Source: an uncultured Rhodospirillaceae bacterium (GTDB lineage Bacteria; Pseudomonadota; Alphaproteobacteria; Rhodospirillales; Magnetospirillaceae). From it: a stretch of DNA of 64,000 nt. The stretch spans positions 1 through 64,000 of the forward strand of contig CAIULK010000206.1 of NCBI GenBank assembly GCA_903899885.1, in the 5' to 3' direction. Of this stretch, positions 32,991 through 39,248 are shown piece by piece (the stretch's first letter is position 1; every line of letters starts with the position of its first letter). The position numbers and the translations under genes were made by a program. The notes below the pieces were generated by a model. It ran no database searches. It was not told where the DNA came from and saw nothing but the letters and a program-made list of their open reading frames with translations.

Positions 32991-33331
32991 AGCACCGCCA
33001 TGTGCAGACCGGGGATCATCCGGCGCAGCAGGCGCGCCGTCGCCCCGCTATCGACCAGATCGTCCACGCCCAGCCAACGGCCGCCGCGCGGGATCACCGG
33101 GGGCTTGATCACCTCGACCGCGCCCGCCTCCCGCCCCTCGTAGGCGCGGACACAGAGGGTTTCGATCCGCCGGATATTCAGCCGTCCGGCCAGAATCGCG
33201 GCGGGCACCAATCCACCCCGGCTGACCGCGACGATGCCGTCGAACGGCCCTTGCCCGGCCAACAGCCCGGCCAGCGCCGCCGAATCATGATCAACCTCGT
33301 CCCAGCTGACGATTTGCGTGGTGTTTACCAT
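32897..33331 (-). CDS. gpt: Xanthine/guanine phosphoribosyltransferase-like enzyme
   Basis: 144 residues, type I PRTase fold. The PRPP-binding loop is WLGVDDLVDSGATARLL and the N-terminal part has GIVAVSRGGLVPAAILAGRL, as in enterobacterial Gpt (purine salvage from xanthine and guanine with PRPP). The start ATG 33331 fits family length; longer frames upstream are shadows. Its last 94 bp lie antisense to the 3' end of glnD. Confidence 0.87.
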   Translation of the reverse strand: MVNTTQIVSWDEVDHDSAALAGLLAGQGPFDGIVAVSRGGLVPAAILAGRLNIRRIETLCVRAYEGREAGAVEVIKPPVIPRGGRWLGVDDLVDSGATARLLRRMIPGLHMAVLYAKPAGRALADTFVREVPSSLWLVFPWEAD

Positions 33332-33388
33332 TTGTTGGCGGCCCTTGCGGCAATCTATCTTGAGGTTCCACAGTCTCGGAGTGACGCC

Positions 33389-33610
33389 ATGGCCCGCATC
33401 CAATTGACCGCGCTGACACCGGAAGAGGCCGAGAACCGGCCAGTGATCCATACCGGCGTATCGATGATGGGCTTGCAGGGCGACGATTGCGTGTGCGGCC
33501 ATTGCGGCCGCGTGATGATGACGAATTTCGACATCGGCCCGATTCGCCCGGACATGGTCTATATTTGCGGCAATTGCGACGGCGCCAGCGCCGCCCCGCC
33601 CCGGCAATAG
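33389..33610 (+). CDS. Small zinc-ribbon protein
   Basis: 73 residues ending in a treble CxxC pair: CVCGHCG and YICGNCD, which would bind one zinc. The rest has no recognisable domain. ATG 33389 is preceded by GGAGTGACGCC. The gene lies on the plus strand in the gap between two minus-strand genes, and its last 52 bp overlap the receiver gene antisense. A role in nucleic acid or protein binding is possible but not shown. Confidence 0.6.
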   Translation: MARIQLTALTPEEAENRPVIHTGVSMMGLQGDDCVCGHCGRVMMTNFDIGPIRPDMVYICGNCDGASAAPPRQ

Positions 33611-33963
33611 CTGGCGACCACCTTCAAGAGGTGCCGGACCGATATCGGTTTGGTCACCACTTGATCGAATCCCGCCTCGTGAAAGTCCGAGGTGGCTTCG
33701 GGGTCGGCGAAGGCGGTCACCGCCAGCACCGGCACCCCGGCGGTGCGGGGATCGGCCCGAAGATCGCGCAGCAAATCGACGCCCGAGCGGTTGGTCAACT
33801 GAATGTCCATCAACACCAGATCGACCGGCTGGGCGGCGACCTGTTCGACCAGTCCATCGCCGTTTTCCGAGGTCAACACGGTATAGCCATCGACGCCCAA
33901 CGCCTGAACCATCAGCTTCATGTTGGTGGGGTTGTCCTCGACGACGAGAATCATGCCCTTCAC
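33559..33963 (-). CDS. Single-domain response regulator (DivK/CheY-like)
   Basis: 134 residues consisting of one receiver domain: acidic pair in VVEDNPTNMKLM, phosphoacceptor Asp in LVLMDIQLTNRSG, Thr in AVTAFA and Lys in VVTKPIS. The DNPTN and IQL-type motifs are those of DivK/hybrid-kinase receivers. The GTG start at 33963 has a GGAGG site and overlaps the stop of the GGDEF-EAL gene (GTGA), so it probably forms a relay with that protein, which carries its own receiver and HisKA segment. Confidence 0.87.
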   Translation of the reverse strand: MKGMILVVEDNPTNMKLMVQALGVDGYTVLTSENGDGLVEQVAAQPVDLVLMDIQLTNRSGVDLLRDLRADPRTAGVPVLAVTAFADPEATSDFHEAGFDQVVTKPISVRHLLKVVASYCRGGAALAPSQLPQI

Positions 33964-36900
33964 GGCACGCCTCCGAACGGATTCGTCCGGCCGCCGACAT
34001 GGTTTTGGACGAACCGTTCGAATTCGGCGACCGGCAATGGTTTCGAGACCAGATAGCCCTGAATCTCGTCGCAGCCCTGGCGGGCCAGGGACACCGCTTG
34101 CGCTTCGGTTTCCACCCCCTCGGCGATCGTCTTCAACGACAAGGATCGGGCCAGCGAGATGATCGCCCCGGCGATCGCCCGGTCGTCGTCGTCGTGTTCC
34201 TGGTCCATCACGAAGGTGCGGTCGATCTTGATGGTATCGACCGGGAACCGCTTGAGATAGGCCAGCGAGGAATAGCCGGTGCCGAAATCATCGATCGACA
34301 AACGCATGCCCAGGCGATCCAGCCCGCGCAATGTTTCCAGCGTTCCCAATCCTTCGACCATCAGCACGCTTTCGGTCAGCTCGAGATCCAAACGCGCCGG
34401 GTCGATTCCCGCTTCGGCGACCGCCGCGGCGATTTGATCGACCAGGGCGGGGTCGCGGAACTGGCGGCCCGAGATGTTAACGCCGACCCGGAAACTGGGC
34501 AGTCCCGCCTTGTCCCAGGCCGCCATCTGGGCGCAGGCGGTGCGCAAAACCCAAGCGCCCATCGGCACGATCAGCCCGTTTTCCTCGGCCACCGGAATGA
34601 AACGGTCGGGCAGGATTAGCCCCAATTCGGGATGGCGCCAGCGGATCAGCGCCTCGGCGCCGATCAGGGAGTAATCCGACAGCCGGACTTGCGGCTGATA
34701 GTACAGTTCGAACTGCCCGCGCCGCAGCGCCTCGCCCAGCGAACGGTCCAGCGTCAAGCGTTCGGTGGCGGCTTGCGACATTCCGGCGTTGAAGAAACCG
34801 ACCCGGTCGCCGCCCTTGCGGCGCACCGCGTGCAGCGCGGTTTCGGCGTTGCGCAGCAAATCGAAGCTGTCGCCGCCATCGCGGGGGAATGCCGCCACCC
34901 CGATATCGGCCGGCACGGTCATCTCGGTGCCCTCGACCTGATAGGGCTGCTCCAGGCATTGGTGCAATTCGTCGGCCAAGCCGATCAGCGCCGGATCATC
35001 CTTGATGCCGGTCAGCACCAGCGCGAATTCGTCGCCGCCCAAGCGGGCCGCCGTCCCGTTTACCCCGGCGATCTGACCGACACGGCGCGCGGTGTCGCAC
35101 AGCAACTCGTTGCCCGCCTCGTGCCCCATCGAATCGTTGATGGTGGTAAAACCGGCCAAATCGATGGTGAACAGGGCGACCCACGACCCGTCGATCCGCG
35201 CCTGGGCCAGGGCGTTTTCCAAATGATCGGTCAGCAGTGTGCGGTTGGGCAGATCGGTCAGCGGATCATGGTTGGCAAGATACGCCACCCGCTTGGCCAA
35301 GGCCTTGTTTTCCGACAGATCGCGAATGGTGCCGGTGAACAGGCGGCGGCGGTCGATCTGCAACTCGGCCACCGACAGATGGGCCGGAAACAGCGTGCCG
35401 TCGCGCCGTTTGCCGGTGATCTCGCGCCCACGGCCGATAATGGTTCCCCCGCCCCCGGCGAGATAGCGCTTCAAGTAGCCGTCGTGGCGGCTAGCGTCGG
35501 GATCGGGCATCAGCATCGTGACGTTGTTGCCCACCAGCTCGGTCGGCTGATAGCCGAAAATCCGTTCGACCGACAGATTGGCGGTTTGCATGATGCCATG
35601 CTCGTCGATGGTGATCACCGCATCGAGGACGGTATCCATGATGGCGCGGATCCGGTGTTCGCGCGCCGTCACCGCCCGCATGGCGGCGGTGATCTCCGTG
35701 GTATCGCGTCCCACCACCAAGGCGGCGGGATTGCCGGTTTCGCGGCGGATCGGCACCGCCGACACCTCGATATCGCGTTCGCGGCCGGAATAGGCGACGA
35801 TCTTGATGGGAACCGGATGTTCCTCGGCATACAGGGCTTCCAGCCCGCCCGCGAAGCGGCCCCGGTCGTCGGCATGGACGAAATCGGTGAAGACCCGGCC
35901 CTCGCACGCCGCCGACGATGGGGCGCGCAGCATGCCGACCCCGGCCGCGTTGATCCGTTCGATGACGCCATCGACGCAAACGCAAATCAGATCCGGCGAC
36001 AACTCGACAAGATCGCGGTACGAGGCGTGATCGCGCACCAGCGCCGATTCCAGCATCGAGATATCGGTGATGTGATCCATCAGGCGCAGAATCTGGCGCC
36101 CCGATTCGGTGATCGAGCGGGCATAGTCGCGATAGGCGGCGGGCTGCAAGGCGCCCAACGACTCGCCGTGAATCATTTCGGCATAGCCGATGACGTCGTT
36201 GAGCGGGGTGCGGATATCGTGGCTCATCCGCGCCATGAAATCGGTTTTGGCCCGGTTGGCCAGATCGGCGGATTCCTTGGCCTCGGCCAATTTGACGCTG
36301 GCGGCGCGCTCGGAACTGATATCGCGCACGAAGACCGCGCAGCGGTGATCGTCGGGTCCGGATCCGGCCACCCCCAGCAGGCGGTTGGCGAACCAGCGCA
36401 GCCCGTCGCTGTCCTCGAACTCCACGGTCCGCTGACCGCTTAGGGCATGGTGAAAGCGCTCGCGGCGCCCGGGCGCCAAGGCGGGCGGCAACAGCGCGAA
36501 AAAATCGTGGCCGATCAGCCGGTCGGCTGGTTTTTCGAGGTAATCGCAGGCATGGGCGTTCAAGGTCAGGATCCTTCCCGCCGCATCCAGCAGCAGGGCC
36601 GAATCGTGGCTGGCATCCAGCAGGGCTTGGCGGGTGCGGCGCGCGCTGTCCAACGCGGCCTGGGTCTGCTGACGCTCGATCGCGTGGCGGATGACGCGGG
36701 GCAACAGATCCAAACCGGCGCCGGACTTGGCGACGTAATCCTGGGCACCGGCCCGGATGGCGTCCTGAGCAACACGCTCGTCGTCCAGACTGGTCAAAAC
36801 CACCAGGGCGGTGGCCGGATGGGCCGCCTTCAGGCGGTGAACCGCCTCCAGCCCGGAGGCGTCGGGCAGGCCCAGATCGACCAGCAAGCAATCGGGGGTA

Positions 36901-37055
36901 TTCTTGGCGACCGCGGCCAAACCGTCTTTCAGGCACGAGCAATAGACCGCCGTCCAGGGAAGCAGCGACTCCCTCAGCTTTATTTGTATCAACCTCTGGT
37001 CACCGGGGTTGTCCTCGATGACGACCAGGGTCTTGGCTGTATCCATGGCGGTCAT
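33960..37055 (-). CDS. Receiver-PAS-HisKA-PAS-PAS(haem)-GGDEF-EAL c-di-GMP enzyme
   Basis: 1031 residues. Receiver 10-125 (Asp60, Lys110), PAS about 135-250, HisKA-like segment 265-335 (MSHDIRTPLNDVIGY, His279) with no HATPase domain after it, PAS about 340-455, FixL-type PAS about 465-580, GGDEF 590-755 (RLGGDEFAL, 672-679, intact) and EAL 770-1015 (EAL at 801-803, ISGRQF, ELTES, IDDFGTGYSSLAYL). The third PAS has His524 in SRHDGYLKRY and Arg544 in GRGREITGKRRDG at the exact spacing of the haem ligand His200 and oxygen-binding Arg220 of FixL. Both enzymatic domains look active. Coupled to the receiver protein downstream; divergent from uvrB (84 bp). Confidence 0.93.
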   Translation of the reverse strand: MTAMDTAKTLVVIEDNPGDQRLIQIKLRESLLPWTAVYCSCLKDGLAAVAKNTPDCLLVDLGLPDASGLEAVHRLKAAHPATALVVLTSLDDERVAQDAIRAGAQDYVAKSGAGLDLLPRVIRHAIERQQTQAALDSARRTRQALLDASHDSALLLDAAGRILTLNAHACDYLEKPADRLIGHDFFALLPPALAPGRRERFHHALSGQRTVEFEDSDGLRWFANRLLGVAGSGPDDHRCAVFVRDISSERAASVKLAEAKESADLANRAKTDFMARMSHDIRTPLNDVIGYAEMIHGESLGALQPAAYRDYARSITESGRQILRLMDHITDISMLESALVRDHASYRDLVELSPDLICVCVDGVIERINAAGVGMLRAPSSAACEGRVFTDFVHADDRGRFAGGLEALYAEEHPVPIKIVAYSGRERDIEVSAVPIRRETGNPAALVVGRDTTEITAAMRAVTAREHRIRAIMDTVLDAVITIDEHGIMQTANLSVERIFGYQPTELVGNNVTMLMPDPDASRHDGYLKRYLAGGGGTIIGRGREITGKRRDGTLFPAHLSVAELQIDRRRLFTGTIRDLSENKALAKRVAYLANHDPLTDLPNRTLLTDHLENALAQARIDGSWVALFTIDLAGFTTINDSMGHEAGNELLCDTARRVGQIAGVNGTAARLGGDEFALVLTGIKDDPALIGLADELHQCLEQPYQVEGTEMTVPADIGVAAFPRDGGDSFDLLRNAETALHAVRRKGGDRVGFFNAGMSQAATERLTLDRSLGEALRRGQFELYYQPQVRLSDYSLIGAEALIRWRHPELGLILPDRFIPVAEENGLIVPMGAWVLRTACAQMAAWDKAGLPSFRVGVNISGRQFRDPALVDQIAAAVAEAGIDPARLDLELTESVLMVEGLGTLETLRGLDRLGMRLSIDDFGTGYSSLAYLKRFPVDTIKIDRTFVMDQEHDDDDRAIAGAIISLARSLSLKTIAEGVETEAQAVSLARQGCDEIQGYLVSKPLPVAEFERFVQNHVGGRTNPFGGVP

Positions 37056-37139
37056 CGTTCAAACATGACCGATCATATCGGCGTTGTAAATGTGAAGTGC
37101 CAAGCGTCTGGTCAGGGCGGTTCGGGCTGGGCATAATCC

Positions 37140-39248
37140 ATGGTCATGGGTTCGACCTCCGCCTTCGCTTTCATGGAACGTCCGCCGCTGCCCTCGGGGC
37201 CGGCCGAGTTTCGTTTGGTCTCGGATTACCAGCCGGCCGGCGATCAACCCGCCGCCATCGCCGACCTGTTGAACGGTTTGGCCCAAGGCGAACGCGATCA
37301 GGTTTTGCTGGGGGTAACCGGGTCGGGCAAGACCTTCACGATGGCGCATGTCATCGCGGCGTCGAAGCGCCCGGCCTTGATCATGGCCCCGAACAAGACC
37401 CTGGCCGCCCAGCTCTATGGCGAGATGAAAAGCTTCTTCCCCGGCAACGCGGTGGAATATTTCGTCTCGTACTACGACTATTACCAGCCGGAAGCCTATA
37501 TCCCGCGCACCGACACCTATATCGAGAAGGACTCGGCGATCAACGAAGAGATCGACCGGATGCGCCATTCCGCCACCCGCGCGTTGCTGGAGCGGCGCGA
37601 CGTGATCATCGTCGCCTCGGTGTCGTGCATTTACGGCATCGGGTCGGTGGAAAGTTATGCGCGGATGACCATCCGGCTGCAAACCGGCCTTCGCATCGAC
37701 CGCGCCGATTTGGCCAAAAGCCTTGTGGATCTGCAATATCACCGCAACGACGCGGCGTTTGAACGCGGCACCTTCCGCCTGCGCGGCGACGCGGTCGAGA
37801 TTTTCCCCGTCCACTATGAAGACCGCGCCTGGCGCCTGTCGCTGTTCGGCGACGAGATCGAAAGCATCGTCGAGTTCGATCCCTTGACCGGCGAGAAGAC
37901 CTGCGCGCTGTCCGAGATCACGGTTTATCCCTCCAGCCACTATGTCACGCCGCGCCCGACCATCACCCAGGCGGTCAAGGGCATCAAGGCCGAGCTGGCC
38001 CAGCGCTTGGACGAATTCCGCCGGGACGGCAAATTGCTGGAGGAGCAGCGGCTGCGCGAGCGCACCACCTTCGATCTGGAGATGATGGAAACCACCGGCC
38101 ACTGCAAATCGATCGAGAATTATTCCCGCTATCTCACCGGCCGCAACCCCGGCGAGCCGCCGCCGACCTTGTTCGAATACCTACCGGAAGACGCGCTGCT
38201 GATCGTCGATGAAAGCCACGTCACCGTGCCGCAGATCGGCGGCATGTTCAAAGGCGACTGGAACCGCAAGTCGGTGCTGGCCGAATTCGGCTTCCGCCTG
38301 CCGTCCTGTGTCGATAACCGGCCCTTGAAATTCGACGAATGGGAGCGGATGCGCCCGACCAGCCTGTTCGTGTCGGCCACCCCCGGCCCGTGGGAGATCG
38401 AGCGAACCGGCGGCGTCTTCGCCGAACAGGTGATTCGTCCGACCGGCTTGGTCGATCCGGTCTGCATCGTGCGTCCGGTCGAAGGCCAAGTCGATGATCT
38501 GCTGGCCGAGGTAAGGGTGATGGCGGCCCAGGGCCACCGCACGCTGGTCACCACCCTGACCAAACGGATGGCCGAGGATTTGACCGACTATCTCCACGAG
38601 AACGGCGTGCGGGTGCGCTATCTGCATTCCGACATCGATACCTTGGAGCGCATCGAGATCATCCGTGACCTGCGCCTGGGCGCCTTCGACGTGTTGATCG
38701 GCATCAATCTGCTGCGAGAAGGCCTGGATATTCCCGAATGCGCGCTGGTGGCGATTCTGGACGCGGATAAGGAGGGGTTCCTGCGCTCGAAAACCTCGCT
38801 GGTGCAGACCATCGGGCGGGCGGCGCGCAATATCGAGGGCCGGGTGTTGCTGTATGCCGACAAGATGACCGCCAGCCTGGACTATGCGATCAGCGAAACC
38901 AACCGGCGGCGCGAAAAGCAGCAAGCCTATAACGAGGCGCACGGAATCACCCCGCAAAGCATCCGCAGGGCGGTTGCCGACGTTCTCGATAGTGTTTTTG
39001 AACACGATTACGTCACCGTGCCGACCGATGATGCGGGCGGCGGCGAATTCGTGGGCAAGGACCGCGCCACCGTCAAGGCCGAGCTGGAAAAACGCATGCG
39101 CGCCGCCGCCGCCGATCTGGAATTCGAGGAAGCCGCCCGCCTGCGCGATCAATTGCGGCGCTTGGACGCGCTGGATTTGGGGCTCGCGGCGCCGCCCAGC
39201 CCGAAATACACCCCGAAACCGAAACGGGGAGGCGGACGGAAGCGATGA
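37140..39248 (+). CDS. uvrB: Excinuclease ABC subunit B
   Basis: 702 residues. Walker [13 protein letters not shown], beta-hairpin [16 protein letters not shown]-like DESHVT, helicase motif [11 protein letters not shown], and the C-terminal UVR motif ([19 protein letters not shown]) that contacts UvrC. It verifies DNA damage and loads UvrC in nucleotide excision repair. Start ATG 37140; ATGs a few codons downstream (37146, 37173) are alternatives because the first dozen residues are not conserved in the family. I saw no clear alphaproteobacterial SOS box (GTTC-N7-GTTC) upstream. Its stop overlaps the SDR start (ATGA). Confidence 0.97.

Follow-up and report, generated by a model that had tools for sequence, protein, structure and literature searches.

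Control of c-di-GMP enzymes by haem-binding PAS domains is already known. In AxPDEA1 of Acetobacter xylinum and DosP/PdeO of E. coli, a haem-type PAS domain precedes a GGDEF-EAL phosphodiesterase, which is inhibited by O2 in the former and activated by O2 in the latter (PMC8846402 Table 3; PMC4263535). RmcA of P. aeruginosa is a multi-PAS GGDEF-EAL protein that acts mainly as a phosphodiesterase and has one PAS domain predicted to bind haem (PMC8846402). FixL of Bradyrhizobium and Sinorhizobium is a histidine kinase, and the roles of the haem-PAS residues matched below have been described (PMC10765370). Finally, the Caulobacter pseudokinase DivL, in which Tyr replaces the phospho-acceptor His, senses DivK~P and can dispense with its ATPase domain; DivL of M. 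magneticum has Ala at the same position (PMC4211667).

The enzyme considered here is encoded in a 64,000-nucleotide stretch of DNA from an uncultured Rhodospirillaceae bacterium (the window). Its open reading frame runs from an ATG at 37055 to 33960 on the minus strand and specifies 1031 amino acids. The sequence-only reading had placed a gene at these positions, and the frame proved to be real; the assembled genome carries the stretch without change. Pfam assigns Response_reg (residues 11–114), three PAS stretches, HisKA (269–337), GGDEF (594–750), and EAL (771–1006), giving the domain order REC-PAS1-HisKA(DHp only)-PAS2-PAS3-GGDEF-EAL. The receiver-GGDEF-EAL layout with a third PAS domain that had been proposed is thus borne out by Pfam, but it had left out the HisKA part.

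The haem-PAS and GGDEF-EAL part alone adds one more example to a familiar class: PAS domains of FixL/DosP type are common in c-di-GMP enzymes. Its mode of action is likely similar to that of AxPDEA1 and DosP/PdeO (PMC8846402, PMC4263535), although reviews describe no receiver, DHp, or partner receiver for these two enzymes, and no REC or DHp modules for RmcA (PMC8846402). The unusual parts are the receiver-plus-DHp arrangement and an always-linked gene for a DivK-like single-domain receiver (SDRR). No published study of this protein was found in the open-access literature.

We consider it moderately probable that the protein is a haem-PAS-controlled, dimeric c-di-GMP phosphodiesterase whose DHp module docks the partner receiver. 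The enzyme would be cytoplasmic, presumably dimeric, and subject to several inputs. PAS3 would bind haem through His524 and O2 through Arg544 in the manner of FixL, and the helix between PAS3 and GGDEF-EAL would relay the O2 state to this output. The GGDEF domain would be a degenerate module, probably GTP-binding or structural, leaving EAL as the working output. The DHp module would stem from a kinase of the PdhS/PleC/DivJ/DivL type; it lacks an ATPase domain, and nearly all orthologues have also lost the phospho-acceptor His. It would mediate dimerization and dock the DivK-like receiver encoded next to the enzyme. The N-terminal receiver would contribute a phosphorylation input. If this is true, one phosphodiesterase with an obligate receiver partner unites oxygen sensing, a receiver, and a receiver-docking module of the DivL kind.

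Orthologues of the enzyme (62–68% identity) occur in 22 of the 41 sampled family genomes, with the window's own genome counted. Orthologue counts below refer to 24 sequences, the query among them, and distant comparisons to ten more remote homologues. Mean pairwise identity among the orthologues is 80% for DHp, 79% for EAL, 68% for GGDEF, and 62% for PAS1, the least conserved domain. The phosphorylation residues of the N-terminal receiver (residues 8–120; 36696–37034, on the minus strand like all features of this gene), E14/D15, D60, T88, and K110, are retained in 24/24. A predicted model of the full-length protein has a mean pLDDT of 82.7 and a pTM of 0.37, and its domain packing is therefore unreliable. 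On the 5' side of the gene, no FNR/anaerobox was seen in 36901–37300; promoter and terminator scans returned consensus-level matches only, all on the opposite strand.

Activity of the GGDEF and EAL domains

The GGDEF and EAL motifs had both been read as intact. For EAL (residues 771–1006; 34038–34745) this holds: the ten residues of the phosphodiesterase set (E801, N860, E892, E895, D922, D923, K943, E979, E982, and Q999) are all present in the query and invariant among the 24 orthologues, three of whose rows end short on the C-terminal side. For the GGDEF domain (residues 594–750; 34806–35276) it holds only for the letters, which the query carries at residues 673–677, and the cyclase site is degenerate. 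The residue set of an active diguanylate cyclase (GG[DE]EF plus PleD K332, N335, D344, K442, and R446) is incomplete in the query, where N335 is matched but K332 is replaced by Thr, D344 by Asn, K442 by Arg, and R446 by Gly. At the positions that we take to be equivalent to PleD K332, D344, and R446, the orthologue lineage has Thr, Asn, and Asp/Gly, respectively, and 10/10 distant homologues still carry Lys, Asp, and Arg. No RxxD inhibitory site (I-site) was seen in the GGDEF domain.

The motif itself reads AGDEF in 20/24 orthologues. VCA0965 is a reported case of a cyclase that is active with AGDEF (PMC3974145), so the case against a cyclase rests on the other positions. Given that the EAL residues are all kept, that the GGDEF site is replaced, and that GGDEF is drifting faster than EAL (68 versus 79% identity), the output is likely to be phosphodiesterase activity rather than both activities. 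It is reasonable to infer oxygen control of c-di-GMP by analogy with AxPDEA1 and DosP (PMC8846402); the enzymatic response to O2 could go in either direction.

The most probable alternative, in line with the sequence-only reading, is that cyclase and phosphodiesterase are both active, that oxygen and the phosphorylation state of the N-terminal receiver tip the balance between them, and that DHp is a passive spacer. The literal GGDEF, D632, N640, and complete receiver site of the query would suit such an enzyme, and both activities occur in other GGDEF-EAL hybrids of alphaproteobacteria, for instance in CdgB, which has SGDEF (PMC9683572). We nevertheless think it unlikely: the substitutions at the K332, D344, and R446 equivalents, the missing I-site, the prevalence of AGDEF among the orthologues, and the lower conservation of GGDEF all speak against an active cyclase, and conservation of DHp equal to that of EAL speaks against a passive spacer. 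Since the query retains both GGDEF and His279 of the DHp module, some cyclase activity or phosphotransfer may exist in this species.

PAS3 and the FixL haem domain

Searched against the sequences of solved structures, PAS3 (residues 466–582; 35310–35660) matched BjFixL best (E 2.4e-36, gapless over 118 residues), followed by SmFixL (6.8e-27) and DosP (about 1e-10). These matches indicate that the resemblance to FixL is homology rather than chance, and PAS3 is closer to FixL than to DosP. The identity to the BjFixL haem domain is about 50%, again with no gaps. In the alignment, His524 pairs with His200, Arg530 with Arg206, Thr538 with His214, and Arg544 with Arg220, and the TGKRRDG block is also shared. 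His524 and Arg544 (codons 35484–35486 and 35424–35426) had been noted at the 20-residue spacing of FixL, together with Arg530 and a Thr at the His214 position, and all of these lie where they were claimed to be. A chance origin of the His-Arg spacing was ruled out, as the entire domain is homologous to FixL. Arg530 had been offered as further support; although it is present in the query, this position is Arg in only 7/24 orthologues, which makes it weak evidence. PAS1 and PAS2 (residues 345–455; 35691–36023) lack the FixL-type His/Arg motif.

An AlphaFold model of PAS3, built from an input alignment of 30 homologues and containing no haem, has a pLDDT of 81.6. It superposes on oxy-FixL (1dp6) at 1.2 Å over 116/116 residues (Z 20), with model residues 24–139 lying on residues 154–269 of the 1dp6 chain. 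These ranges give the same pairings in space, with His524 on His200 and Arg544 on Arg220. In a structure search with the model, FixL-family proteins scored Z 18.6–21.0 and all other PAS domains at most 15.4. The FG-loop block up to Arg544 has a pLDDT of about 64 only, which makes the Arg side of the pocket less certain. PAS3 thus has the FixL-nearest fold, the F-alpha His, and the G-beta Arg of the FixL/DosP-type haem PAS domains (cluster 3 of PMC10468136).

His524, Tyr527, and Arg544 are all retained in 20/24 orthologues and all missing in the other four (L020, L022, L023, and L123), which carry short FG-loop deletions. When PAS3 is left out of the tree, these four occupy about three branches, which amounts to about three losses. 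His and Arg are both present in 10/10 distant homologues. Among 96 other FixL-like PAS domains from the same genomes, which were fetched as query matches and are hence biased towards the query, His is found in 88 and Arg in 79. Sequence, predicted fold, and the correlated loss of His, Tyr, and Arg together make a FixL-type haem PAS well supported. Binding of haem and O2 by PAS3 is what we infer from the alignment and the model, and the domain is likely to be a haem oxygen sensor.

PAS3 could also have the FixL fold yet be haem-free in vivo, as an apo or other-ligand PAS domain that only relays N-terminal signals. In the FixL/DosP PAS cluster, the His is missing from about 40% of the domains (PMC10468136), so members may have switched ligand, and about three lineages of the present enzyme family lost His and Arg while retaining the protein. 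Such a state is quite improbable, as the joint keeping or loss of His, Tyr, and Arg fits a shared cofactor and about half of the residues are identical to those of a proven haem domain.

Several related domains were observed alongside. The four orthologues without the motif keep the EAL residues, where their sequence is complete, and the adjoining receiver gene, and are natural haem-motif-less variants. In seven FixL-like PAS domains (L186, L189, L191, L193, L197, L198, and L209), the F-alpha His is kept and Val replaces the O2-binding Arg (GRxVE). They lie mostly in frames of about 440–510 amino acids, L209 in one of 785, and are possibly haem PAS domains with a different ligand preference. 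The window's genome also holds a PAS-PAS-GGDEF frame (G000:C198:12490-13755, L036) whose FixL-like PAS lacks His and Arg; its match to P0001 crosses a flagged TAG, and the gene may stop early or be broken. The other His/Arg-keeping FixL-like domain found in this genome lies in a 983-residue, PAS-rich open frame with kinase-like C-terminal motifs (L221, G000:C121).

The DHp module and its partner receiver

PAS3 is FixL-like within a protein that is not a FixL kinase. FixL sensor kinase identity was ruled out (NCBIfam FixL_Rhizob, 157 bits against a cut-off of 850): the output is GGDEF-EAL rather than a histidine kinase, and HisKA lies upstream of PAS3 without a HATPase domain. The HisKA/DHp helix pair spans residues 262–338 (36042–36272), with no ATPase domain after it. 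In the full-length model, whose numbering is that of the protein minus 3, it consists of a long helix (244–294) and a second helix (304–325). Together with PAS1 (residues 146–250; 36306–36620), it resembles PdhS, although the match of region 127–338 to the PdhS model (1.4e-35) falls far short of the cut-off set for that model. The best DHp relative in the same genome is a full PAS histidine kinase (L220, 49% identity). A profile search of the genome contigs with the HisKA-PAS2-PAS3 alignment returned generic HisKA/PAS proteins, with no close named orthologue among the matches listed.

The phospho-acceptor position of the H-box, His279 (codon 36219–36221), is Arg in 22/24 orthologues (SRDIRTP); His is found only in the query and L005. 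The distant homologues have His here in 9/10. Despite this loss, DHp is conserved on a par with EAL. SDRR, the gene immediately downstream, encodes 134 amino acids at 33559–33963 on the minus strand, from a GTG at 33963, which overlaps the TGA of the enzyme gene upstream, to a stop at 33559. It is present in exactly the 22/41 family genomes that have the enzyme and adjoins the enzyme gene every time. Its identity outside the query is 55–62%, and its nearest solved structures in the PDB are PleD and DivK. The phosphorylation residues are conserved in the aligned orthologues, among which the L015 row is shortened by a frame break.

From this linkage and the family resemblance, we propose that SDRR docks on DHp, by analogy with DivL, a pseudokinase that senses DivK~P. 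As in the DivL-DivK pair, a PAS domain is combined with a DHp lacking the phospho-acceptor His in nearly all orthologues, and the partner is a DivK-like receiver; here, in contrast, there is no ATPase domain, the module sits inside a c-di-GMP enzyme, and receiver binding is putative. It is possible, though we put this forward tentatively, that a phosphodiesterase took over a kinase DHp, lost the kinase chemistry, and is regulated allosterically through it by a dedicated DivK-like receiver; oxygen and two phosphorylation signals, one from its own receiver and one from the docked receiver, would then converge on one enzyme. In that case, helices of a kinase DHp would have been redeployed to receive a signal in a protein that is no kinase. 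An improbable alternative is that DHp acts as an HPt-like relay in which another kinase phosphorylates His279 and the phosphate passes to SDRR or the N-terminal receiver: His in the query, L005, and most distant homologues would allow it, but with Arg in 22/24 orthologues and SDRR in every enzyme-bearing genome, the function that is conserved cannot be phosphotransfer. The family supplies natural controls, both in the orthologues that have shed the haem motif and in the Arg and His versions of the H-box.

Two further observations concern the surroundings of the gene pair. UvrB was considered as a functional neighbour and rejected, as no examined orthologue had it within 1.5 kb. On the plus strand of the window, the open frame at 33290–33610 runs towards the receiver gene and overlaps it; it contains two CxxC pairs (DDCVCGHCGRV...YICGNCDG), and the ORF around it (33002–33610) has no Pfam match.
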